Of a DNA stretch of 64,000 nucleotides, positions 2,421 through 18,681 are shown piece after piece; positions within the stretch are counted from its first letter, which is position 1, and every line of letters starts with the position of its first letter. This DNA is from a virus: IMG/VR virus record IMGVR_UViG_3300005842_000010, positions 1 through 64,000 of that record, one strand, 5' to 3'. The notes under the pieces are model-generated. The model worked only from the letters and a program-made list of their open reading frames with translations. It made no database searches and had not been told where the DNA came from. The position numbers and the translations under genes are program-made.

Positions 2421-4427
2421 TTAAAACCTTTCCGCTTCCATGGCTTTCACTAACCCCTCAAGCCCGGAGAAGTCAGCATCGCCGCCGGTACCTGAAATCT
2501 TTAGCTCAGCGCACAGCACCCGCCCTTTGCGCATTACTTTCCAGTGCGCGTACTTCGCAGGGATTGTCCCAGTTGCCGCGTGCTGCGCCGGAGTCTTGGC
2601 CGTGAGGCAAGCAATCGGTTTTAGGCTGTGCTGAAACCAGACAATGCAACATTCGTCCGTGTTCGGATCTGCCACCTGGGAAGCGATGCCGACGCGCAAC
2701 CCGATCTCGCTGTCCATCCTGGCCAGGAAATCGATTCGCAATTCGTCGAGCTGCAGTAGCATCTTTTTGGCATAAGCCGGAGCAATCCGGATGATCGAAT
2801 CATACCCGTCCAGAATATAGCTCCCGACGCTGGAGAGGTAGCCGACATCATTTGTCTCACCAACGCCCGTCGGATTCGCGCAACGCTCGCGATAGAACAC
2901 GTCGCCAATCTGCTTCAAACACCAGTCCTCGCTCGAAGCGCCCACCAGCATCGTCGCGCCCTCACACTTCCGGCAAAAATCATCAAGGCTCGTGGTGCCC
3001 AACAACGCGCAAAGCGAATCTGCATCCGCCTCGAGCTGCGTCCAGTCCTCCACCACCACGTCGCCAATCGTTTGCGGAGTGAGCGTGTAGATGCTCTGGG
3101 GCGTAAACGGCGCCGTTGCTGCAAGTGCTGGCGACGGCAGGCCTTCCCGATCGTACGGATATCCAGCAGCGTCCAATTGCTCCACGGTGCAAATATCATT
3201 CTCGACGATGAAATCGCGTATCGTAGGAGCCCGGAAACTGCGATAGTTACAAAAGGCCGTGAACCCGAAATCGATCTTATCAGCTACCCGGTAAGTCATC
3301 TGCGTCCGGAGCGTCCGATCGGGGCAATTGTTGGTCGCGCCTACGCTCGCCGTCGAAATAAGCAGCTCGTTCTTGTGATAGGCCGCAACGTGCACCTGGC
3401 AATTCTCAGTGTCGATGTTGTCCAGAATGATCGGCGTTGAGCGATGCAACCATTCCGCGCGCTCGGGCTGGCCGTAGTACGGGCTGAATATGTGCACGCC
3501 ATCCTCAGCCAGGTAAGCATGCGCGCTCGGCAGGCTCACCAGTGTATTCGGGTATTTGAGCACCGTCGCGCCAGGGTTATCATCACCATCATAGCGCCGC
3601 GCAAAGGCAAAGCTCTGGTCCCCGCCAACTGTCGCCATCTCCCAAATGCCGTGTGTCGTGTAGATAATGAATGAATTGCCCAGCGGACGCCCGGCGAGGA
3701 TCCGCTCGTGCGTATATAGATCCTTCGAACCGGTAATCGAGCCTACGTCGGCCGGATCGAATGCTGTCGGGTTATCGAAATCGCTCCAGATTAGCCGATA
3801 AGCAAACCGTTTCCCGTCCATCTCGACGTCCGCGAAAAATAGACAGTTGCGCCAGGCCCACACCACGCCGGCCCGAGACAGTCCAATTGTTGCCAGATCG
3901 GGAAATGGCTGTATCAATGGTGAGCCGGCCACACTGACATCTTCCAGTCGGTGATACATGGGGCTTTCGAAATCGTTGGTGAACGCAAGAAAGTCGCCCA
4001 CCTGGGCGCAATGAAACCGTGGGGCCGCGGCGCTGGTAGTCTGCTCGCCACCGTAACCGGTACCCAAAATACGCCAGTTGCCAGAGTATTCGTTCAGCTT
4101 GGCAATTGCGCCCTGCTTGGCCGCAATCAGGTTGCGCACCTTGCGCGTGCTCTCAGCCTCGAAGAGCAGTGTAATCGGTTGCCGTATCGACGTGAAGTCC
4201 TCGTCATTGGACAGGCTCAAAAGCTGGTCGTGGAAATCCTCGTTGTTGTAAGACGTGTTCGAAAGCAGCTTCTTCCAGCCGCAGCCTCGCCTCAGCTTGT
4301 TCTGGTCTAAACATTGAAAGTTTTGTCGGAAGCGAAGCGTGCCTGAAGCCATCGCATCAGGATTCGAGCGAACGTCGAGCACTCCCGTGAGCGGACTGAT
4401 GGGAACTCCTGTTAGATCAGGCTTCAA
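2421..4427 (-). CDS. Large virion protein, probable tail nozzle-type beta-propeller
   Basis: The 668-residue protein is strand-rich, with repeated tryptophan/aromatic strand motifs such as GVVWAWRNCLFFADV, FIIYTTHGIWEMATVGG and SAHAYLAEDGVHIFSP. This pattern suits a beta-propeller of the kind in podovirus tail-nozzle proteins. It lies next to the collar-domain gene (4-nt overlap) in the late operon, which supports a tail role. The C-terminal third has cysteine pairs (FCRKCEG, DECC) of unknown purpose. The exact family is not identified. Confidence 0.6.
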   Translation of the reverse strand: MKPDLTGVPISPLTGVLDVRSNPDAMASGTLRFRQNFQCLDQNKLRRGCGWKKLLSNTSYNNEDFHDQLLSLSNDEDFTSIRQPITLLFEAESTRKVRNLIAAKQGAIAKLNEYSGNWRILGTGYGGEQTTSAAAPRFHCAQVGDFLAFTNDFESPMYHRLEDVSVAGSPLIQPFPDLATIGLSRAGVVWAWRNCLFFADVEMDGKRFAYRLIWSDFDNPTAFDPADVGSITGSKDLYTHERILAGRPLGNSFIIYTTHGIWEMATVGGDQSFAFARRYDGDDNPGATVLKYPNTLVSLPSAHAYLAEDGVHIFSPYYGQPERAEWLHRSTPIILDNIDTENCQVHVAAYHKNELLISTASVGATNNCPDRTLRTQMTYRVADKIDFGFTAFCNYRSFRAPTIRDFIVENDICTVEQLDAAGYPYDREGLPSPALAATAPFTPQSIYTLTPQTIGDVVVEDWTQLEADADSLCALLGTTSLDDFCRKCEGATMLVGASSEDWCLKQIGDVFYRERCANPTGVGETNDVGYLSSVGSYILDGYDSIIRIAPAYAKKMLLQLDELRIDFLARMDSEIGLRVGIASQVADPNTDECCIVWFQHSLKPIACLTAKTPAQHAATGTIPAKYAHWKVMRKGRVLCAELKISGTGGDADFSGLEGLVKAMEAERF

Positions 4428-6284: not shown

Positions 6285-6367
6285 TTCGGTAGTTTGTTGA
6301 GCAGCGCTAAAACGATTCCAAAAGCCAGCGCAACCGAAATAAGGAGTGTGATAGTGGAAGCTTTCAT
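6281..6367 (-). CDS. Single-span membrane peptide, 28 aa
   Basis: The frame reads MKAST, then ITLLISVALAFGIVLALL, then NKLPK: one transmembrane helix with a positive end. Its ATG overlaps the stop of the DHH gene (ATGA) and its TGA overlaps the GTG of the next gene, so both junctions support translation. Role unknown; small membrane peptides of phages often act in lysis or superinfection exclusion. Confidence 0.6.
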   Translation of the reverse strand: MKASTITLLISVALAFGIVLALLNKLPK

Positions 6368-7278
6368 AGCGAAAATGGAAGGGTTCTAACTCTGAAACCG
6401 CAGGCCTGCTTATGTCCGCCACCTCCGTGTTTTACTGCAATCTTTGAAAGGTCAATATCAGGTTTTCCCGGCACGCCATACATCGACACTCGCCAATCCT
6501 TACCAGAGAACGTGAATCCAATTAGCCCATCGTGGTGAGGTTTTATACCGGCCTCAAACAAGTGACTGCGGATGTCTAATTCATGCGAGCAACAAGCGAG
6601 AAAGTTTAGACCCTCAAATTGCATGTCGAATCCCTGAGTCGTGATAACATCCCGATATTCATTTGACCGAGCGAATTCGAGAACTTTTCCGCCTTCCAAT
6701 AATTCAGCAACACAATGTTCGCCAGCAACTCGATCTTCGCCAAGAAGATATTTCCAAGTTATATCGTTTAGTTTTCGACTTCGAAGCCCATGCTGAAAAA
6801 GTTCGGCATCAGGATCTCGCTTGTCCCAAATGTCGTATTCGCCAGCGAGTCTAACAGCAAGTGGTTCGTTTACAGTTCGTTGTTTGTAGTCCTGAATCAT
6901 CGGCAACACACCAGCAGCACGAACCGAGTTGCCAACATTGCCGAACTTGGTATTGCCATCAACAATCTCAAACCATTGCCACGCCAACCGACATGCTGCC
7001 ACTCCATCTATGCGATAACCTGGAAGCGATGAGCCATATTTGTCGATTGCGCTCTTGTGGTGGTCGATCCATATCACATTGGAGTGGCAGCCATCTTCAA
7101 GACAATCTGGAGAAAGGTCGAGAATATAAGTTTGGCCATCCGGTATCGGAAGCTCCTTGTCTCCATAATCCCAACCAATTAGTTCAGCACTGGGTAGGAA
7201 CTTTCGCGCAATCTCTCGGCAAAAGATTCCATCAAAATCTGCGGAATGATAAATGACTGTAAGGTTTGCAACGTTCAT
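6364..7278 (-). CDS. DHH-DHHA1 family phosphoesterase
   Basis: The 304-residue protein has the family's ordered motifs: HSADFDG (residues 11-17), a YILDLSPD strand (about 51-58), the signature IDHHKS (71-76) and a C-terminal GGGGHKQACGF of the DHHA1 domain that binds substrate. Such enzymes use Mn2+ to hydrolyse short RNA, cyclic dinucleotides (GdpP, NrnA type) or pAp. No GGDEF or PAS domain is present, so it is a stand-alone cytosolic enzyme of near NrnA size. It starts at a copy of the repeated promoter/start element and the mRNA is predicted to be leaderless. The substrate cannot be told from sequence. Confidence 0.9.
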   Translation of the reverse strand: MNVANLTVIYHSADFDGIFCREIARKFLPSAELIGWDYGDKELPIPDGQTYILDLSPDCLEDGCHSNVIWIDHHKSAIDKYGSSLPGYRIDGVAACRLAWQWFEIVDGNTKFGNVGNSVRAAGVLPMIQDYKQRTVNEPLAVRLAGEYDIWDKRDPDAELFQHGLRSRKLNDITWKYLLGEDRVAGEHCVAELLEGGKVLEFARSNEYRDVITTQGFDMQFEGLNFLACCSHELDIRSHLFEAGIKPHHDGLIGFTFSGKDWRVSMYGVPGKPDIDLSKIAVKHGGGGHKQACGFRVRTLPFSL

Positions 7279-9012: not shown

Positions 9013-9825
9013 TTAATATCCCAACAATAGCGCATTTAACCCGGTTGAGCACGGATCGCACATGAAAGTTTCGCGCACTTTCAATTTTTCTTCGCACGTC
9101 CACATTAGCTCAGCGAGTGCTTTATCGTAGCCACCGGTGCCCATCGGCAGGCCTGACTTGTAGTAAGCCGCTTTCTCTGGACTGCCATAGTCGCGCTCGT
9201 GCGCAAATTGGGTGTAAAGCTGTACGGCCAGCTTGTAATCCTGTTCCTCGTTCACCAAATCTTCATCAGCCCAGGACGTCTTGATACCGTCCCACTCAAT
9301 CAAGATCAATTCTGTGCTCTGGATATATGGCGCCACATAGATGTTGCCGCGGTGCTTGGCCCATACGCCGGTGAGCGATCTGCAATTGCCATCTGTTGCC
9401 GCCGTTGCCCTGGTGAAGCCTAAAGCGAGCTGGTCCTCGAGCGCTGGCATTTCTCCCACAGCAGCAATAGCCTCACGTCCGACGCATTCCGGTTCGGGCC
9501 ATTCAACTTCGCGATAGGTAATTGCCGAACAATAATCTCGGCCATCCTCATCCTCCACCACTGTCATCAACCGAAGGATTTTACCATTCGGCATCTTGAA
9601 CACCGTCATGCCGCACTTGAAAAAGGTATTACAAAATTTGATGACATCGACGATGTTCGTTTGCTCGCACCTAACCCATTTAGCGATGTCAGCCATTGCC
9701 TCTTGAAAGTGCTGATCGTGAGCGCTCAATACACCGGGCACGACGGCATCTCGAAGATTTTCCGGCTCGGTTTCGCCCCACACCTGCGCGCGCACCTCGT
9801 TTTTAAGTGTCAGGAAGGTTTTCAC
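9013..9825 (-). CDS. Virion-module protein, 270 aa, GTG start
   Basis: The start is placed at GTG 9825, which overlaps the upstream TGA (GTGA); the product then begins MKTFLTLKNEVRAQVWG. A longer frame starting at 9906 would overlap the upstream gene by 85 nt and is less likely. The protein is mixed alpha/beta, with a C-terminal segment rich in Cys, Lys and Glu (WTCEEKLKVRETFMCDPCST). Its length and location between capsid and tail genes suit an adaptor or tail tube A-type protein, but no family was recognised. Confidence 0.6.
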   Translation of the reverse strand: MKTFLTLKNEVRAQVWGETEPENLRDAVVPGVLSAHDQHFQEAMADIAKWVRCEQTNIVDVIKFCNTFFKCGMTVFKMPNGKILRLMTVVEDEDGRDYCSAITYREVEWPEPECVGREAIAAVGEMPALEDQLALGFTRATAATDGNCRSLTGVWAKHRGNIYVAPYIQSTELILIEWDGIKTSWADEDLVNEEQDYKLAVQLYTQFAHERDYGSPEKAAYYKSGLPMGTGGYDKALAELMWTCEEKLKVRETFMCDPCSTGLNALLLGY

Positions 9826-10034
9826 GAGAAGCTTACCGCATTCAGATCGACCATCGGCACGCCAGATGGAGTTGTGAGCCATCCCATTCGGTAGCCGCAA
9901 ACGCACGGAAAGAGCAGAAAATAAACCATGCCGCCGTTATGAACGGCCTCGGCATGCTGGCCGCGCACGACCTCTCCACAATGAAGGCAATTCAGCATGT
10001 GCACCAATGGAATGATGAGAAGCTTCGGGTTCAC
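9822..10034 (-). CDS. Small cysteine-rich protein, 70 aa
   Basis: The product has two cysteine pairs (CLHCG and CVCGY) spaced as in a zinc ribbon, with histidines between. Both ends overlap neighbours by 4 nt (ATGA upstream, GTGA downstream), which strongly supports translation. Function unknown. Confidence 0.65.
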   Translation of the reverse strand: MNPKLLIIPLVHMLNCLHCGEVVRGQHAEAVHNGGMVYFLLFPCVCGYRMGWLTTPSGVPMVDLNAVSFS

Positions 10035-10489
10035 GCAATACTTTTACCTTCAACACCGCGCGCCAGCCGATCCCGCGTTCTTTTTTGAAGCCACATGAGC
10101 GCATCCTCGCAATGGGTCAGCGCCACTGCATTTTCGCGACATCGGTATTGGCCTTCCTGAAATGAGCGAAGCCTATCAATTACGATGGCCAGCAATGATT
10201 CCTGTGATATCCCATTCACTCCAGATTCCAAGACGGGTCCGTTTTGAAATGAAATCAGGGTTGTGCTGCCGACGCTCACGGAACCATCGGGCATCATTGA
10301 TATTTTCGAACCGCTTGGGCCAGAGAGAATCTTCTCAAGTTCATCAATCGTCGGTCTTGGTCCTCGCCGGACTTCTCCCCAAGAAATTTGGTATTGATGA
10401 CAAGCTCCGCCCTGCCCCGGTTCGTCGAGCACGTCAATGTTCAGTGCATCGTTTAGTCCGTTGAGTTTATGATCGGTTAATGTTCTCAT
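10031..10489 (-). CDS. Acb2/Tad1 hairpin-family protein, putative anti-defence sponge
   Basis: Residues 1-32 (DHKLNGLNDALNIDVLDEPG then QGGACHQYQIS) and the C-terminal part (LISFQNGPVLESGVNGIS, then LLAIVIDRLRSFQ, then CRENAVALTHCEDALMWLQK and RTRDRLARGVEG) match, from memory, a large phage family now linked to the Acb2/Tad1 helical hairpin; older records call it ABC transporter ATPase. Known Acb2 binds cyclic di- and trinucleotides of CBASS and known Tad1 binds gcADPR of Thoeris. This copy has an extra insertion of about 40 residues between the two halves. Binding is inferred, not shown. It is coupled to both neighbours in the late operon. Confidence 0.7.
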   Translation of the reverse strand: MRTLTDHKLNGLNDALNIDVLDEPGQGGACHQYQISWGEVRRGPRPTIDELEKILSGPSGSKISMMPDGSVSVGSTTLISFQNGPVLESGVNGISQESLLAIVIDRLRSFQEGQYRCRENAVALTHCEDALMWLQKRTRDRLARGVEGKSIA

Positions 10490-10977
10490 GTCTTTGCTTT
10501 CTTCGGCATCTTGGCACGTTTCACGACCGGCGGTTTGAACTCGGTCGGCGCGGGCGGCGCGGTTGACTGAGCGGGTATCTCCGCGACTGTCGGAGTCGGC
10601 GGCGCGATTGGCTCATTAGGCGGAGGCGGGCTAGCCACCACAGCAGCGACGTCTCTTTGCGGGACGATCCGGGTGTCGGTGTCCGAGCTCATTCCCCCTC
10701 TCGGGTTTAACTGCTCCCGCCAGGGCCGATTTAATTGCTGCCCGCCCAGTGCTTTTTTTTTCTCAACAAAATCCCGGTTGAATTCTTCCTGAGTGATCTC
10801 GGTGATTCCTCCGCGACCCTCGGACATCATCTGTTCAAATTCACCATGGATGAACGGATTCTGAGTCGCGAAATAACCAACGCGATGATCTATTGTGGAA
10901 AAGACGACCTTCGCACCGTTGCTAAGCCAAATAGGAATTTCTGGACTAAACTTTTTGTAGCATTTCCAGTCAGCCAT
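10486..10977 (-). CDS. Hypothetical late protein with proline-rich tail
   Basis: The start is set at ATG 10977, eight bases after the stop of the HNH gene; an upstream ATG at 11031 would overlap that gene. The folded part reads MADWKCYKKFSPEIPIWLS, then GYFATQNPFIHGEFEQMMSE. Similar small proteins, as far as I recall, lie beside capsid genes in soil-phage contigs. The last 60 residues are a Pro/Ala-rich, then Lys-rich tail, probably disordered. Role unknown; minor capsid or head-closure is possible. Confidence 0.55.
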   Translation of the reverse strand: MADWKCYKKFSPEIPIWLSNGAKVVFSTIDHRVGYFATQNPFIHGEFEQMMSEGRGGITEITQEEFNRDFVEKKKALGGQQLNRPWREQLNPRGGMSSDTDTRIVPQRDVAAVVASPPPPNEPIAPPTPTVAEIPAQSTAPPAPTEFKPPVVKRAKMPKKAKT

Positions 10978-10984
10978 TCGCCAT

Positions 10985-11992
10985 TTATGACACAGGCGCG
11001 ACGGTTGGCAATGGGAAAGAGAGGCGGGCACCCTTCTTCAAATTTTGGACGGCCCACAGGGGTTGAAGGTTTTTGTATGAAAAACATTCTCGTTGCTGCG
11101 CCGGATCGCTCAAATCAAAAGAGCTAACAGGGCGCTTATGGTCAGCGTGCCAGCCATAGAAACCATATGTATCCCATGTCATTCCTGGCTGAAATTGAGA
11201 TTCGATGTGGGCGCGCAATTCGGCGGTAGTGCAGCCTATCAGCTCCATGCTCTTTCCACACTTGGTCGCCCCGGACAGTAAACGACCGACCATCGTGCGA
11301 ACGCTGGACAGCAGCCTCCAAAATGGATCTTTGGCTTTCTTGGCGCGGTATTTATTCCACGACGCTCGATCTGCTGCCTGGATTTCTTCCGGCGTGCGCT
11401 TCTTTCTTGGGCGGGCGAGAAGGCGTCGATATCGCTCCCTGTTTAGAATCCTCCACCTAGCACGGCGCTCAGGATCTTGATTGTATCGCTTCCTGCGTTC
11501 TCGGTGCTTTTCACGATAAATTCTGTCGTAGGCAGCACGGGCTTCGACCATTTTACGATACTCAGATCCATCACCAAGCTTCGCCGCAGCTTTTCTAGCT
11601 CGATGCCTTTCCCTTGTCCGAAATCGAAGTGTCTCTCTATGGCGTTCTCGATATCGTTTCTGGGCTGCGTCCGACTGTTGTTTTATTATTTCCGGTGTGC
11701 GAGTTCCCTTTTTCCTCACCTCTTTAACTGTGAAGCCAAGACTTTCTCGGTACGCCTTATATTGACTGTTCTCTTTCGCCCTAACGATCTCTGGATTGTT
11801 AGTGCGCTGATTCTTTCTTCTTGCGCTGATTGCCGCGCGATTTTTGCGATACCACGCCTTTGACCATTCGTTGTGCTTTGCCCTTTGGCCTGCCTCCGAG
11901 TTTTCCGTTTCTTCTGGAGGCGATTTGCTTTGCTCTGCTATTGGACTGTCCTCCAAGCCTACCAAGGGTAACTGCATATTTGTGGATTGCAT
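10985..11992 (-). CDS. Free-standing HNH endonuclease with long basic N-terminal region
   Basis: The C-terminal HNH module has HADHKRPVSSFDLSDPAQQ, then CFSYKNLQPLWAVQNLKKG, a type common in free-standing phage endonucleases. The first 230 residues are repeated Arg/Lys/Glu-rich helices (YRERHRETLRFRTRERHRAR) of the kind that bind DNA. The start is uncertain because the first 190 nt also encode a second plausible reading frame (11799-11999). It lies in the late operon between the capsid and small late genes and is likely a homing element. Confidence 0.75.
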   Translation of the reverse strand: MQSTNMQLPLVGLEDSPIAEQSKSPPEETENSEAGQRAKHNEWSKAWYRKNRAAISARRKNQRTNNPEIVRAKENSQYKAYRESLGFTVKEVRKKGTRTPEIIKQQSDAAQKRYRERHRETLRFRTRERHRARKAAAKLGDGSEYRKMVEARAAYDRIYREKHRERRKRYNQDPERRARWRILNRERYRRLLARPRKKRTPEEIQAADRASWNKYRAKKAKDPFWRLLSSVRTMVGRLLSGATKCGKSMELIGCTTAELRAHIESQFQPGMTWDTYGFYGWHADHKRPVSSFDLSDPAQQRECFSYKNLQPLWAVQNLKKGARLSFPLPTVAPVS

Positions 11993-11999
11993 TATTCAT
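11799..11999 (-). CDS. Alternative 66-aa ORF overlapping the HNH start
   Basis: The frame reads MNNAIHKYAVTLGRLGGQSN, then IASRRNGKLGGRPKG, which has the LGxLGGxxx...ASRxNGKLGGRP pattern found in many small bacterial and phage proteins. It is the first ATG after the promoter at 12005-12033. Either this is the true gene and the HNH protein starts further in, or the HNH insertion overlaps an older gene. Only one of the two starts is certain to be used. Confidence 0.4.
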   Translation of the reverse strand: MNNAIHKYAVTLGRLGGQSNSRAKQIASRRNGKLGGRPKGKAQRMVKGVVSQKSRGNQRKKKESAH

Positions 12000-12037: not shown

Positions 12038-12066
12038 AAAAGGGCCGCTTTTTAGGCGGCCCTTTA
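12038..12066 (-). terminator. Intrinsic terminator after the capsid gene
   Basis: A perfect GGGCCGC/GCGGCCC stem with a 7-nt loop is extended by A/T pairs and followed on the minus strand by TTTTTCTTTT. It lies 17 nt downstream of the capsid stop codon. Confidence 0.85.
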
Positions 12067-12082
12067 TGATTTCTAAAATGAC

Positions 12083-13975
12083 TTAATACAAATTTCCGTA
12101 GGTTGGATTTTCGGTCTTACCAGTTACGATAGGCACAGCCTCATTCAAACCTTCCAGCCACCCACTATCAGATGGGCAGCTTACTATTCCGGTTTGAGTT
12201 TGCGATACCAGTGATATGTCCTTCGTCACATTCGCCATCGTGCAAGCGAACGTAGGATCCAGTCTCGCCAACTCTTCGAGCTGGCCGAGCGTGCGCTGTT
12301 TCCGGTTGCTGGCGATCATGCCGGGATAGATCGAACCGCCACGAGGACCCGGCTTGCCGATATCCAGAGCGAGCAGGAACCGTCCGCTCGACTTGATGCC
12401 TTCGTAATCAGCCGCGCTCACGAGGTCATCAAAGAATTCGTGAGTGACGAGGTTGATCGTGACTCCGGACGGGAATTTCGGCTTGAACGAGCGCCAGCTA
12501 AACCCGAGGGCATTGCTGCCTTCGTCGATGACGATGCGGGCAATGTCGCCGAATTCCTGTCGGACGTAAGCGACGAACGCGCTTTCCATGTTGGCCGCAT
12601 AAACCGAGTCCGTGAACCAATCGATGGAATTGGCCATTTTACCCTGGCTCTTGCGCGAGCGATAGATGCGATAGTTCTCATCCAGCCACTCGTAGAAGTT
12701 GAGCGTGTTGTTTTGGAGGTCGCTCACCTGGCCGCAAGTGCGGAGCTGCTCGTAAACGCCAATCATGTTGGCTCGGTAAGCGACCACTTCGCCGCCAGTG
12801 CCGGGATCAGTGTTGGTTCCGGTAACCGTGAGGATCTGCTCAAGATTCTGCCATAGGGCCAAAGTCTGATTCGCGCTAATCGGTTTGCCGAAGAAGAAGC
12901 TCATCAGCCAACGGCGTTGAAACTCTTCCTCATCCTGGCGATTGCGCTCGGCAAGCGGGAGATCTCCGAACTGTTGGAAATACTTGTTGCTTTCCATCAG
13001 GCGAGCAAACACCTCTTTGTAAGTCGAGCTCACGCAGCGGGTTCGGCGCATGGTTTGCACCCAGTACGGCACGACATGGCGAGGATCGAGCGTCGGCCGG
13101 TTCTGGCACCAGCTTTCAAAGTCGTTCACGTTATTGCCCATGGCGATGAGCAGGCCTGACGTCGGAGCCGAATCAATAGGTGTGCTAGATCCTGAATTTT
13201 CGCTCGTTATTAGCACATCCACGTAGGACAAGTCGGCTGCTACTTCCGAGGCGAGCACCTTCCATACGCCACGGGTCGAGGCACCGTTCCCGGCACGGCC
13301 AAGAAGCAATACCCGGTCACGATCGAGGAACCATTGACGGTTCATGTCGAGGCCGTAGCGAGTTACAACCCGGATCACCCGGTCACCAGCCGCTCCCAGT
13401 GCTTTATCGGCTGCTGTCAGCGGTCCAGTTACCAGTGCGGTATAGGCGCTATTGGCCTGGCCGGCTGTGATAGCCCAATAATCCTTGTTGATGATGCTGT
13501 CCTGGCGCGCTTTGACGAATGGATAAAGCAAGCCCGGCCCCCTGTCGATCTTCTCCATGTGCATCAGCGAACCAACGTCCTTCTGGGAACTCATCACCCA
13601 GTCGTACATACCGTTGATCTTGGTACCACAGGCAGCCATTTCGAATTGGGTCTGGAACCAGGCATCCATGTCACCGAACAGCCCGTCGGGCCGAAACAGC
13701 GATTCAAGCTGGGCAGGTGTCAGGTGCGCTACGCTCGCCCGCGTGATGGTTCCGCACGTATCGTAGTTGTTGGCAACCACGACGTGGCAGGGAGTCTCTT
13801 GGAAGCGCGCGCTCGTGGAGGTGACGCCCATCAGGGCAAATACGAACGCCCCGCCGGCAATGGGTACCGCGTGGCTTAATATGCCCGGCAGCGCAAGCGC
13901 TACGAGGCCGGTGAGAATTAACACGCCCAGAATCAGGACGGTTAGCTTAAACGGGAAGGACCAGGTTTTTTTCAT
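12083..13975 (-). CDS. Major capsid protein candidate with hydrophobic N-terminal region
   Basis: The 630-residue product follows portal and scaffold genes and has its own terminator, as expected for the major capsid gene. No HK97 motif is recognisable by eye, so the call rests on synteny and size. The first 55 residues hold two hydrophobic segments (about 10-30, LTVLILGVLILTGLVALALP, and 36-52), unusual for a capsid protein. Residues about 70-130 (CGTITRASVAHLTPAQLESL, then FRPDGLFGDMDAWF, GMYDWVMSS) are shared with the separate gene at 18289-18681. The RBS GAGAG sits inside a stem-loop at 13978-14024. Confidence 0.65.
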   Translation of the reverse strand: MKKTWSFPFKLTVLILGVLILTGLVALALPGILSHAVPIAGGAFVFALMGVTSTSARFQETPCHVVVANNYDTCGTITRASVAHLTPAQLESLFRPDGLFGDMDAWFQTQFEMAACGTKINGMYDWVMSSQKDVGSLMHMEKIDRGPGLLYPFVKARQDSIINKDYWAITAGQANSAYTALVTGPLTAADKALGAAGDRVIRVVTRYGLDMNRQWFLDRDRVLLLGRAGNGASTRGVWKVLASEVAADLSYVDVLITSENSGSSTPIDSAPTSGLLIAMGNNVNDFESWCQNRPTLDPRHVVPYWVQTMRRTRCVSSTYKEVFARLMESNKYFQQFGDLPLAERNRQDEEEFQRRWLMSFFFGKPISANQTLALWQNLEQILTVTGTNTDPGTGGEVVAYRANMIGVYEQLRTCGQVSDLQNNTLNFYEWLDENYRIYRSRKSQGKMANSIDWFTDSVYAANMESAFVAYVRQEFGDIARIVIDEGSNALGFSWRSFKPKFPSGVTINLVTHEFFDDLVSAADYEGIKSSGRFLLALDIGKPGPRGGSIYPGMIASNRKQRTLGQLEELARLDPTFACTMANVTKDISLVSQTQTGIVSCPSDSGWLEGLNEAVPIVTGKTENPTYGNLY

Positions 13976-15560: not shown

Positions 15561-15855
15561 ATTGTTTTGTTGCGTAAACTGGCTTTAGTTCAGATGCCGT
15601 AAAACTGTACTTCTCACTGTGCTGCGCCATCAACTCGGCGACGTCTTTGTAGAAAATGGCCTTTCTCAAACATTCCCGAGATTCATCGTGCTGCGTCTCA
15701 TCACCCGCCCCCAGGTTGGCAGACTTTGCCAGAGATTCAGCCGCCAGATCAAGCAAGTGCTGGCGGTAAAGCAGGGCCGGGGTTTGGCGCAGCCATTCGC
15801 GGATTTGCCGCTGCTGCTCCACCGCCATTAGTTTCGGCAAGAGCTGTATCATCAA
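15499..15855 (-). CDS. Small helical protein between portal and scaffold
   Basis: The core EQQRQIREWLRQTPALLYRQ, then HLLDLAAESLAKSANLG is helical. It overlaps the portal C-terminus by 107 nt and the scaffold start by 62 nt; a second ATG (MAVEQQ, 15828) would shorten the first overlap. Role unknown, perhaps head assembly. Confidence 0.6.
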   Translation of the reverse strand: MMIQLLPKLMAVEQQRQIREWLRQTPALLYRQHLLDLAAESLAKSANLGAGDETQHDESRECLRKAIFYKDVAELMAQHSEKYSFTASELKPVYATKQYDRNRSQDGTGTGETADSNT

Positions 15856-18286
15856 GTGTTGGTAGATTATTTACTTTGAAAAGGACATCAATCTCTCTCT
15901 GGGTTAGCACCGCCTGGGTTTGCAACGCCTTCGTCGCTTCGAGTAATGGAGTGATTTCCTTTTGCACTTCGCCGTGAACGATCTTCACGACCATCTCGAC
16001 CATAGCCTGCAGCTCTTGCTGCTTCTCGGCCGCCTGCTGTTCCGGGCTGGTATTGGGTGCCACATTCCTAAATTTGAAATCCTTTTCGATGCCGGCCAGC
16101 CGGCAAATGCGGTTCAGCCACTCGAGCGCCTGATCCGGGCCGATGGACTGCATCAGCATCGGCACACTAAGAGATTGCTGCAAAATTAAGGCCATTGCCT
16201 GGGCGGCTTTCGCGTTGTCCTGACGATCGTTGCCGTCGCGCGTGCTGATAAGCGACCAAATCGGCATGGCCGAGAGGTGCTTTTTGTTCACTTTATAGAG
16301 GCGCCACTGGTCCTTGGGAACGATCAATTCCTCCTTTTTATGAGCGAGGAATCCCAAGTCGTTAAGCTGCTGCTGCGTCAGCGGAACGTCGCTCGGCAAG
16401 TGAACCCAGAAATCTTCGTCGCCGTATTGCATCAGCCCGATATAAAGCTGCCGCTTCCAGGCATCGCGGGCGATATCAACCGGCGTGGCGGTAAATTGAA
16501 GCCTCGAGCTGGTGCTCTGTTCGATGTTTCGAACTTCATCCACTCTCAGCTCGTGCGAGGCTGCCTGGGCAATCTCCTGGCTGCTCATCACCAGCACGCG
16601 CTCGAGTATCTCAAGAATCGTCCGGAGCACGTTCGACATTTCGGCCACGTTGCCTCGAGGGAAATTGAAGCTTTGAACCACGTCGGGAATGCCTCGGTTA
16701 CCGACCTGCAGCTTGAGCGCTTTCTTGCTCGAATAGCCGAAGATGTTCAGGAACCGGTAAAACTTTTCGCCGAGGTTCCTGAGCTGATCGATTGTGTCAC
16801 GCGCACCATGCCGCTGGTTCGGGTCACCAGTCATTAGCTGGTCCTCGTCGATAAAAGTCAGGTTGGCCAGATTCTGCTTACACGTCAGAATGATCTGCGT
16901 GAGCATGTTGCTGAAATGATCTTGGAACGGGAGGATCTCCAGGCTGAGGCTTGCATTCTTCGTGCGGCTCTCATCGGCGTCGTAGCCGTAGTAGATGACG
17001 GGATCATACGGTACCGGCGCCGCGTAGAGGATAGTGCATCCATCCCCGGCCACCATGAATCGGAACCACACCGGACAATCATAATCGCCGAGTCCATTCT
17101 CCTTCGGGATCAGCCGCTCCCAATACTCTGTAATCAGCACGCCCTGGTCGTTGTAATCCGTGCCGTAGTACAGGCTGCCGATCGCCTTCTCACGATCAAC
17201 CGACGGACTGCCCACTGAAAGCTCTGCGCCAAGCACCGCCCCCTGTGGCATCTTCCGCACAGGCATGCACGTCAATTGGCACCCGGAATAGACTGAGGTG
17301 AAAAACAACCGGTTATCTGCGATCAAATCCGTGCTGCCTAGCGCTATCCGGTCCTTGTTCCAGTAGTTTCCACTCAAGATCTCGCGATAGCGAGCGATGC
17401 GCCAGTAGCCGGCAAACTCACATCCATAGCCGTAATTGAGCGTGAAGGGCGGGTGCGCCAGGTCGTAGAACATGCGCGATGGATGAGGCAGGTGATAATC
17501 GATACCCTCACGATCAGTCACTTTGATTTCATCATTCAGGTTTGCCGGGGTGCCGTCATCCTTCTTATGCCCGAGCGCCACGTCGATTTCATCGGCATAC
17601 TTGCGCTGATCTTCCCAGTGCCACTCGTGCTTTGGAAATTGCAGGCACATCGAGTAATGCAACATTTTCAGCACAGCCTGCTTCGTCACGTCGAAATAAC
17701 CGTACTGCGTTGAAATCACCTGGACGCGATCGGTAAGCGCCTTGCATTTCAAGTTGAGCACTGTCGTTTGATCAACTGGCTCGTATTTGAAAAAAGGGGT
17801 CAGGCGGCGATCGTTCATTATCTTCGCCCACCGGATCGTGACGTACGATCGTACGAGCGGAACAAACACGTTGAAGAACGTCGGGACATTGAGACACTTT
17901 TTTAGCTGCTGAGTTTTGGGATCCATGACCTCAGTGATCATGTTTGTCAGCCCCCAACTCTGGAACGCTTTGTAAACTGACTCATCATTCGGGTCTTGAT
18001 CGGCCAGTTGCTGCAGGAGGGTTTGCGTCACCTGGCGGAATGGAGTTTCCCAAGCGGTATCGAGCGCATGATAAACCCGGTAGTCAGCGAAATTGCGCTG
18101 CATGCCCTCTTGAATGCGGGAGCGTATTCGATTGATCAGTCTGCCGCGTCGGGCCGCGAGAGCTAGCGGGATATCTTGATTATTGACATCGCCTTCCGGA
18201 ACGGCGAGCGGATCGATGCCAAGCCACTTCTCTAAGTTTTCTGGCGTGAGGCCATACTTCTTTAAGCAATTTAAGTCGGCTGACAT
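15749..18286 (-). CDS. Portal protein (podovirus-type, 845 aa)
   Basis: Large size, a helical N-terminal region (RGRLINRIRSRIQEGMQRNF), a central wing and crown portion with YxLPHPSRMFYDLAHPP and YYGTDYNDQGVLITEYWERL, and a C-terminal stem region with an AQAMALILQQSLSVPMLMQS helix before a disordered Ala/Pro-rich tail. It precedes the scaffold and capsid genes and lies near the terminase gene. It forms the dodecameric DNA gate of the head. The family match is by overall pattern; no single signature motif exists. Confidence 0.8.
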   Translation of the reverse strand: MSADLNCLKKYGLTPENLEKWLGIDPLAVPEGDVNNQDIPLALAARRGRLINRIRSRIQEGMQRNFADYRVYHALDTAWETPFRQVTQTLLQQLADQDPNDESVYKAFQSWGLTNMITEVMDPKTQQLKKCLNVPTFFNVFVPLVRSYVTIRWAKIMNDRRLTPFFKYEPVDQTTVLNLKCKALTDRVQVISTQYGYFDVTKQAVLKMLHYSMCLQFPKHEWHWEDQRKYADEIDVALGHKKDDGTPANLNDEIKVTDREGIDYHLPHPSRMFYDLAHPPFTLNYGYGCEFAGYWRIARYREILSGNYWNKDRIALGSTDLIADNRLFFTSVYSGCQLTCMPVRKMPQGAVLGAELSVGSPSVDREKAIGSLYYGTDYNDQGVLITEYWERLIPKENGLGDYDCPVWFRFMVAGDGCTILYAAPVPYDPVIYYGYDADESRTKNASLSLEILPFQDHFSNMLTQIILTCKQNLANLTFIDEDQLMTGDPNQRHGARDTIDQLRNLGEKFYRFLNIFGYSSKKALKLQVGNRGIPDVVQSFNFPRGNVAEMSNVLRTILEILERVLVMSSQEIAQAASHELRVDEVRNIEQSTSSRLQFTATPVDIARDAWKRQLYIGLMQYGDEDFWVHLPSDVPLTQQQLNDLGFLAHKKEELIVPKDQWRLYKVNKKHLSAMPIWSLISTRDGNDRQDNAKAAQAMALILQQSLSVPMLMQSIGPDQALEWLNRICRLAGIEKDFKFRNVAPNTSPEQQAAEKQQELQAMVEMVVKIVHGEVQKEITPLLEATKALQTQAVLTQREIDVLFKVNNLPTLDDTALAETNGGGAAAANPRMAAPNPGPALPPALA

Positions 18287-18288
18287 AG

Positions 18289-18681
18289 CTATATGGCGCG
18301 CTCAAGGAGTGAGTGATCAACCATGTCCCCGATACGTTCACCGAGTTCGATGATTGGACGCTCTATCTTAGGAATGAGCCTATTGTTCGACTCCATTACC
18401 CAATCATACATGCCGCGCGTTTTCCCCTCGAGTGCTCTCATATCAAACGACGCGTGGAAAAAGGCATCCATGTCATCAAACAGTCCGCTGGGTCTAAATA
18501 GCATCTCGAGCTGCGCTGGAGTTAGCTGCGCAATTGACGCTTGAGTGATACTTCCGCAATCTGGCGTAAATCCAGGCGGAGTTATTACCTTCCAAACTAT
18601 TGGCTCAAACTTTGGAATGAAGATAAGCGGAGCTATCGCAAGGCTTAACTTCGTGAAAAATGAACGACGGCTCTGCATCAC
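18289..18681 (-). CDS. Paralogue of the capsid N-terminal region with Tat-like signal
   Basis: Residues about 38-105 (CGSITQASIAQLTPAQLEML, then FRPSGLFDDMDAFFHASFDM, then TRGMYDWVMESN) are clearly homologous to residues 70-135 of the capsid candidate, about half identical. The N-terminus has QSRRSFFTK, then LSLAIAPLIFIPKF, a twin-arginine-like hydrophobic leader. It sits 2 nt upstream of the portal gene. It may be a minor head protein or an assembly regulator, or a remnant of a gene duplication. Confidence 0.65.
   Translation of the reverse strand: MMQSRRSFFTKLSLAIAPLIFIPKFEPIVWKVITPPGFTPDCGSITQASIAQLTPAQLEMLFRPSGLFDDMDAFFHASFDMRALEGKTRGMYDWVMESNNRLIPKIERPIIELGERIGDMVDHSLLERAI

Follow-up and report, generated by a model that had tools for sequence, protein, structure and literature searches.

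A Tad1 homolog carrying a recurring phage module in its extended loop, encoded near a candidate capsid gene of an IMG/VR virus

The tad1 locus and its neighbours

The window examined here is a 64,000-nucleotide stretch of viral DNA (positions 1 to 64,000 of the 79,434-base record IMGVR_UViG_3300005842_000010), in which a minus-strand open reading frame (ORF) with an ATG start and the boundaries given in the original prediction encodes a homolog of Thoeris anti-defence 1 (Table 1). The gene belongs to a minus-strand block, extending from 0.8 to 18.7 kb, that also encodes Ig-domain, tail-collar and virion structural proteins. The product of the candidate major capsid gene had no family match and none in the PDB or among cultured phages, and relatives of it are encoded in three further contigs (L098, L100 and L101; L numbers denote the loci compared). 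The 70-aa ORF at the end of tad1 likewise gave no family match. When the virus record was searched with the Pfam model PF24729, tad1 was the single match, at 24.6 bits, under the curated cut-off. A protein identical to the window Tad1 is encoded in a 29-kb viral contig, IMGVR_UViG_3300026035_000398; since the 16,456 bases compared are 99.994% identical to the window, this contig comes from the same phage or a very near one and provides neither an independent lineage nor independent support.

Table 1. Features of the tad1 region, in window coordinates
Feature	Position	Strand	Basis or remark
tad1 (Thoeris anti-defence 1 homolog), 152 aa	10031..10489	-	sequence and predicted fold
Tad1 N-terminal beta region, residues 1-40, GxGGAxHxY	10370..10489	-	model strands 2-4, 16-20, 32-40
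PTI-ELE-PDGS module, residues 45-74	10268..10357	-	loop between strands 32-40 and 71-81
Acb2/Tad1 helical hairpin, residues 95-146	10052..10207	-	model helices; PF24729 23.7 bits (cut-off 27)
181-aa gene directly upstream of tad1	10486..11031	-	stop/start overlap ATGA (4 bases)
70-aa ORF, GTG start, 4-base overlap with tad1 end	9822..10034	-	
297-aa gene downstream	9013..9906	-	directly after the 10486-11031 homolog in L098, L100
Candidate major capsid protein	12083..13975	-	position after portal-like and scaffold-like genes only
Portal-like gene	15749..18286	-	weak SU10_portal match, 15.8 bits, below cut-off
Terminator-like hairpin	12039..12065	.	between capsid candidate and tad1 cluster; consensus match only

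Comparison with the related contigs bears on how tad1 came to lie at this site. In L098 and L100, a homolog of the 181-aa gene is conserved after the capsid candidate, and the homologs of the two tad1-flanking genes are adjacent, with neither tad1 nor the 70-aa ORF between them. No Tad1 was found in the L098, L100 and L101 records (0 of 3, L098 and L100 being fragments), and homologs of the tad1-flanking genes were not found in L101. Distant homologs of both flanking genes also occur in L022, a 78-kb record, where they enclose another ORF and a tad1 gene lies about 4 kb further on, in the same direction. Because the flanking homologs adjoin each other in L098 and L100 and the tad1 of L022 is displaced, the window gene looks like inserted cargo at a variable site.

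Several other features were recorded in this block. An Endonuclease VII-like gene, possibly mobile, lies between the capsid candidate and tad1 (10985-11992, minus strand; phrog_1035, E = 3.4e-6), and a 66-aa ORF (11799-11999, minus strand) overlaps its start. The gene at 6364-7278 (minus strand), within the tad1 block, encodes a DHH-type phosphoesterase (phrog_4771, E = 9.6e-20) in which the motifs DHH and GGGGHKQACG are found. It is possibly a second enzyme that acts on signalling nucleotides, and L100, a record without tad1, has a homolog of it (43%). Residues 42-98 of a 130-aa ORF at 18289-18681 (minus strand) resemble a portion of the capsid candidate (67% over 57 residues), so that this ORF is perhaps a partial duplicate of it. 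Just past the capsid candidate, positions 12039-12065 form a near-perfect inverted repeat with a T-rich flank that is terminator-like in both directions.

Family assignment, predicted fold and conserved residues

The original prediction placed the product in the superfamily of Acb2/Tad1 sponges, and sequence comparison bears this out, specifically for Tad1. With phmmer, the C-terminal half of the window protein matches the solved CmTad1 (8kbb) with E = 7.1e-22, by sequence far past chance level, and CbTad1 (7uav) with E = 2.8e-17. A profile was built from 78 homologs, namely the window protein and 77 other distinct fetched proteins, leaving out the phage-database proteins L010 and L012-L016 and the near-duplicate L080; it matches CbTad1 with E = 1.2e-29 (positions 15-128 of 128) and the Tad1 domain of gp184 from the jumbo phage phiKZ (8y6v_I) with E = 1.1e-22 over profile positions 14-126. 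Of the motifs named originally, CRENAVALTHCEDALMWLQKRT, ARGVEG and FQNGPVLESGVNG are present, and the one given as EEALMWLQKRT reads EDALMWLQKRT. The PF24729 search suggested alongside that prediction fell short, at 23.7 bits (E = 5.6e-5) against a cut-off of 27 bits, and NCBIfam gave no match. Since the homologous Tad1 of L018 scores 36 bits, the PF24729 model is at its detection limit for the window protein, which is filed as Tad1 by sequence and fold and not by this model.

The fold was predicted with AlphaFold2, as a monomer only, from the 78-sequence alignment (mean pLDDT 89.8); a model from the single sequence (pLDDT 43.7) was set aside. Foldseek placed CbTad1 with gcADPR at rank 1 (E = 1.8e-9); its top 20 chains are all Tad1, and no other chain fell below E = 0.1. 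VIA-align superimposed 121 residues of the model, within residues 1-152, on CbTad1-gcADPR (7uaw_A) with a Z-score of 12.8 and an rmsd of 2.2, the best row other than Tad1 reaching a Z-score of 5.8, and neither list contained another convincing fold. The model consists of beta strands at residues 2-4, 16-20, 32-40 and 71-81 and of two helices, 96-112 and 118-144, which form the hairpin expected in the original prediction. The same N-terminal beta domain and C-terminal helical hairpin make up the known Tad1 proteins (CbTad1 7uav/7uaw, CmTad1 8kbb and SBSphiJ7 Tad1), with which the window protein has the motifs FQ-G, NG, CRENA, RT-R and VEG in common. Acb2 is a short protein built from one short helix and a helical hairpin. 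It shares the hairpin with the window protein and, according to PMC12043709, lacks the beta domain; with that domain present in the model, Acb2 was ruled out as the family of the window protein.

Conservation at the residue level is compatible with an ordinary core. The alignment of the 78 homologs has 46 columns with conservation of 90% or more; the window protein agrees with the consensus in 45 of them, the sole departure being I86V, and G25, G27, A29 and Y33 are invariant. The CbTad1 residues reported to contact gcADPR (F82 and N92) and cyclic trinucleotides (R109 and R113) align with F110, N120, R137 and R141 of the window protein, and at each of these positions 77 or all 78 homologs have the same residue. 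The window ORF is a complete, real Tad1. The Tad1 hexamer, a trimer of dimers, has six pockets for gcADPR or cyclic dinucleotides and two sites for cyclic trinucleotides. A review (PMC12043709) describes a hexamer of three dimers that binds gcADPR and cyclic dinucleotides in common pockets and cyclic trinucleotides at separate sites. By analogy with the reviewed Tad1s, the window protein may bind gcADPR and cyclic di- and trinucleotides, and a sponge function is likely.

The extended loop and its module

An insertion of about 40 residues between the two parts of the protein had been proposed. The loop is indeed long, and its size needs revision: 47 residues lie between Tyr33 and Phe81, as compared with a median of 24 (range 12-65) for the same loop across the 78 homologs, an excess of 23, and loops of more than 36 residues were otherwise seen only in L018 (45) and L036 (65). 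The insertion is a length-variable loop, which here houses a recurring module with the pattern R-PTI-(D/A)-ELE-x-IL...PDGS; in the model, the module forms a helix (residues 48-55) and a strand (62-65), and the long strand 71-81 comes next. This loop with its helix-strand module distinguishes the window protein from the known Tad1s, as does the location of its gene downstream of a capsid candidate.

Among the 78 Tad1s, the module is carried only by the window protein and L018. The two loops align with a BLOSUM62 score of 57, matched by 0 of 2000 shuffles; by profile alone L018 is a weak and partial match (E = 0.0027), and its membership relies on this pairwise test. In a tree built without the loop, L018 and seven other proteins form a clade of eight (support 0.958) to which the window protein does not belong, and the loops of the other seven measure 12-29 residues; given this short-looped clade, the two Tad1s carry one insert on different backbones. 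The still longer loop of the L036 Tad1 (L036:6001-6510) is unrelated to the module, its score being equalled by 359 of 2000 shuffles, and the comparison with the L083 loop (140 of 2000) was not convincing either. The insert alone found nothing in PHROGs or Pfam at E up to 10, the unrelated L036 loop having one PHROGs match at E = 0.006; among cultured phages, the insert had two chance-level matches (E = 6) and, in a repeat search at E up to 1, none.

The module is not confined to Tad1. When viral contigs were scanned with the two inserts, 14 of 64 pattern matches were confirmed, and when ten module sequences were used in a second scan, 19 of 36; in bacterial genomes, 2 of 24 were confirmed, both small free-standing ORFs. 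The scan pattern favours ORFs with the PTI-ELE half and does not include the PDGS half, which lies about 15 residues further on. A module profile run over 30,610 ORFs from the window and the loci retrieved 21 distinct ORFs at E < 1e-8, comprising the two Tad1s and 19 non-Tad1 reading frames. A leave-out profile matched the window module with E = 3.3e-12 among the same ORFs, and a profile free of any sponge matched the window protein with E = 1.7e-12, four Acb2-type ORFs with 2.6e-13 or better and L018 with only 0.0025; the best of 3,900 shuffled Tad1 sequences reached E = 3.9. Together with the shuffle test on L018, the match of the sponge-free profile rules out a random, lineage-specific insertion at residues 45-74.

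Five of the 19 non-Tad1 frames are, or directly follow, Acb2-type sponges. The three that were tested with Pfam, L132, L133 and L138, score 44.8, 42.1 and 45.0 bits with PF24729, all above the cut-off, and carry as a C-terminal tail the module that is internal to the window Tad1; L132 had no match among solved chains at E up to 1 and is filed as Acb2-type by its PF24729 score. L137, at the end of a contig, is a partial ORF, and its residues match the tail of L132; in L147 the module follows an Acb2-type frame, named by eye, in a different reading frame (L148 is the same ORF). This split, near 2690-3099 in the identical ORFs of L147 and L148, may be due to an indel or a frameshift, or to an assembly error common to both contigs. 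Other carriers include members of families of unknown function (L155 and L158), small free-standing ORFs such as L156, L160 and L161, and an L141 protein that also matches phrog_419 and has a weak match to PGDYG, below the cut-off. In this last protein (L141:2662-3096) the module is C-terminal. By eye, the L141 protein resembles the product of L022:981-1319, both being small proteins of the type HGWIDTLEG...CPGDW.ITGVKGE; the L022 ORF is the one enclosed by homologs of the two window genes on either side of tad1. An integrase in L140 matched in its PTIDELEKL stretch alone (E = 0.0018) and was not counted as a carrier. We conclude that this structured insert is a recurring phage module common to Tad1 and Acb2. 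The sharing between the two families appears to be new. The peptide strings of the module had no occurrence in the literature searched, which did not extend to subscription papers.

Setting among head genes and possible roles

The late-operon position of tad1 was originally thought to be unusual, a view that the other loci do not uphold. Two of the closest relatives encode it among head genes: in L004 (core identity 0.78), the genes on either side of tad1 encode a head-tail adaptor (phrog_332, E = 6.5e-106) and a major head protein (phrog_3437, E = 2.2e-50); in L005 (0.72), they encode a terminase (E = 1.6e-11) and, again, a major head protein (E = 7.6e-32). For L003 (0.80) and L023 (0.71), the family matches of the neighbours give no assignment of the setting. 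The surroundings in L018, L020 and L036 look like replication-type regions by reading only, and the annotations of OLIVR5 and BSTP3 place tad1 near topoisomerase, SbcCD-type, polymerase or recombinase genes; both head-gene and replication-type settings occur. The neighbour survey comprised 218 ORFs of at least 100 aa at 78 loci, seven loci having been omitted beforehand, and 119 co-directional ORFs were compared with PHROGs; the tally covers the first 25 of 121 PHROGs families, and no head-gene fraction was derived from it. In phiKZ, moreover, gp184 is annotated as a structural protein and validated as an injected protein (PMC10449902), and a review describes it as a Tad1 that is injected and blocks both CBASS and Thoeris (PMC13282480).

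Taken together, these data fit a scheme that we consider, as a whole, quite probable. By homology, the window Tad1 would assemble as a hexamer of dimers and would hold the gcADPR of Thoeris and the cyclic di- and trinucleotides of CBASS without cleaving them, a sequestration that would keep effectors such as ThsA, CapV or NucC off. The gene would have been gained as cargo, downstream of the capsid candidate and between a pair of conserved genes. The trigger of staphylococcal Thoeris is the major capsid protein (PMC11312562), and a sponge made with the head genes would therefore arrive alongside the trigger; the location of tad1 among head genes would thus supply the sponge as capsid protein builds up. 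The hairpin at 12039-12065, and a search near tad1 that found no sigma-70-like promoter on the same strand, count against shared late transcription. The extra loop, finally, would carry a shuffled 30-residue helix-strand module outside the ligand pocket. As sponges are not its only carriers, the module most likely serves docking, assembly or stability instead of contributing to the pocket. More specifically, it could be a mobile docking domain grafted onto counter-defence or accessory proteins that meet a common phage or host partner, an idea we put forward tentatively and consider rather doubtful.

The head-gene setting of the window, L004 and L005 could also be read as a sign that Tad1 is a late product that is packaged in the capsid and enters the host along with the injected DNA to act at the start of infection, as described above for gp184, a full-length Tad1 homolog. 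We regard this as unlikely: in gp184, the Tad1 domain is preceded by about 112 residues (match from residue 113), a long N-terminal extension that the window protein does not have, and the window phage, with its 79,434-base record, is not a jumbo phage. The two proteins also differ in the module, which was not seen on reading the gp184 sequence. A different role for the module is suggested by Tad2, in which, according to the review cited above (PMC12043709), cyclic dinucleotides are bound by way of an insertion located between strands beta2 and beta5. The window insertion is structured and lies between two strands of the beta domain in the model, and it might similarly alter the signals bound, through an extra site or a narrower pocket. 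This seems improbable to us, since the module occurs also at the C-terminus of Acb2, on proteins not known to be sponges and as free-standing small ORFs, which points to a general role, and Tad1 loops vary greatly in length. That the gene is a decayed or repurposed Tad1 that has lost nucleotide binding, as its sub-threshold PF24729 score might suggest, is highly improbable, the ORF being intact, tightly overlapping its neighbours and retaining all but one of the conserved positions. The reading we prefer remains that of a Tad1 sponge acquired as cargo, supplied in time with the capsid and fitted with a shuffled docking, assembly or stability module.

Tad1 and Acb2 are usually treated as simple, free sponges. 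The occurrence of one module inside a Tad1, at the end of Acb2 and on unrelated small phage proteins suggests that counter-defence proteins are built from interchangeable pieces, and if the docking reading is true, such sponges would be localised or assembled via the module instead of floating free. The module also gives a means of searching uncultured phages for further counter-defence genes. Finally, the recurrent placement of tad1 among head genes makes it testable whether a sponge is timed or packaged to meet Thoeris and CBASS signalling that is triggered by the capsid.
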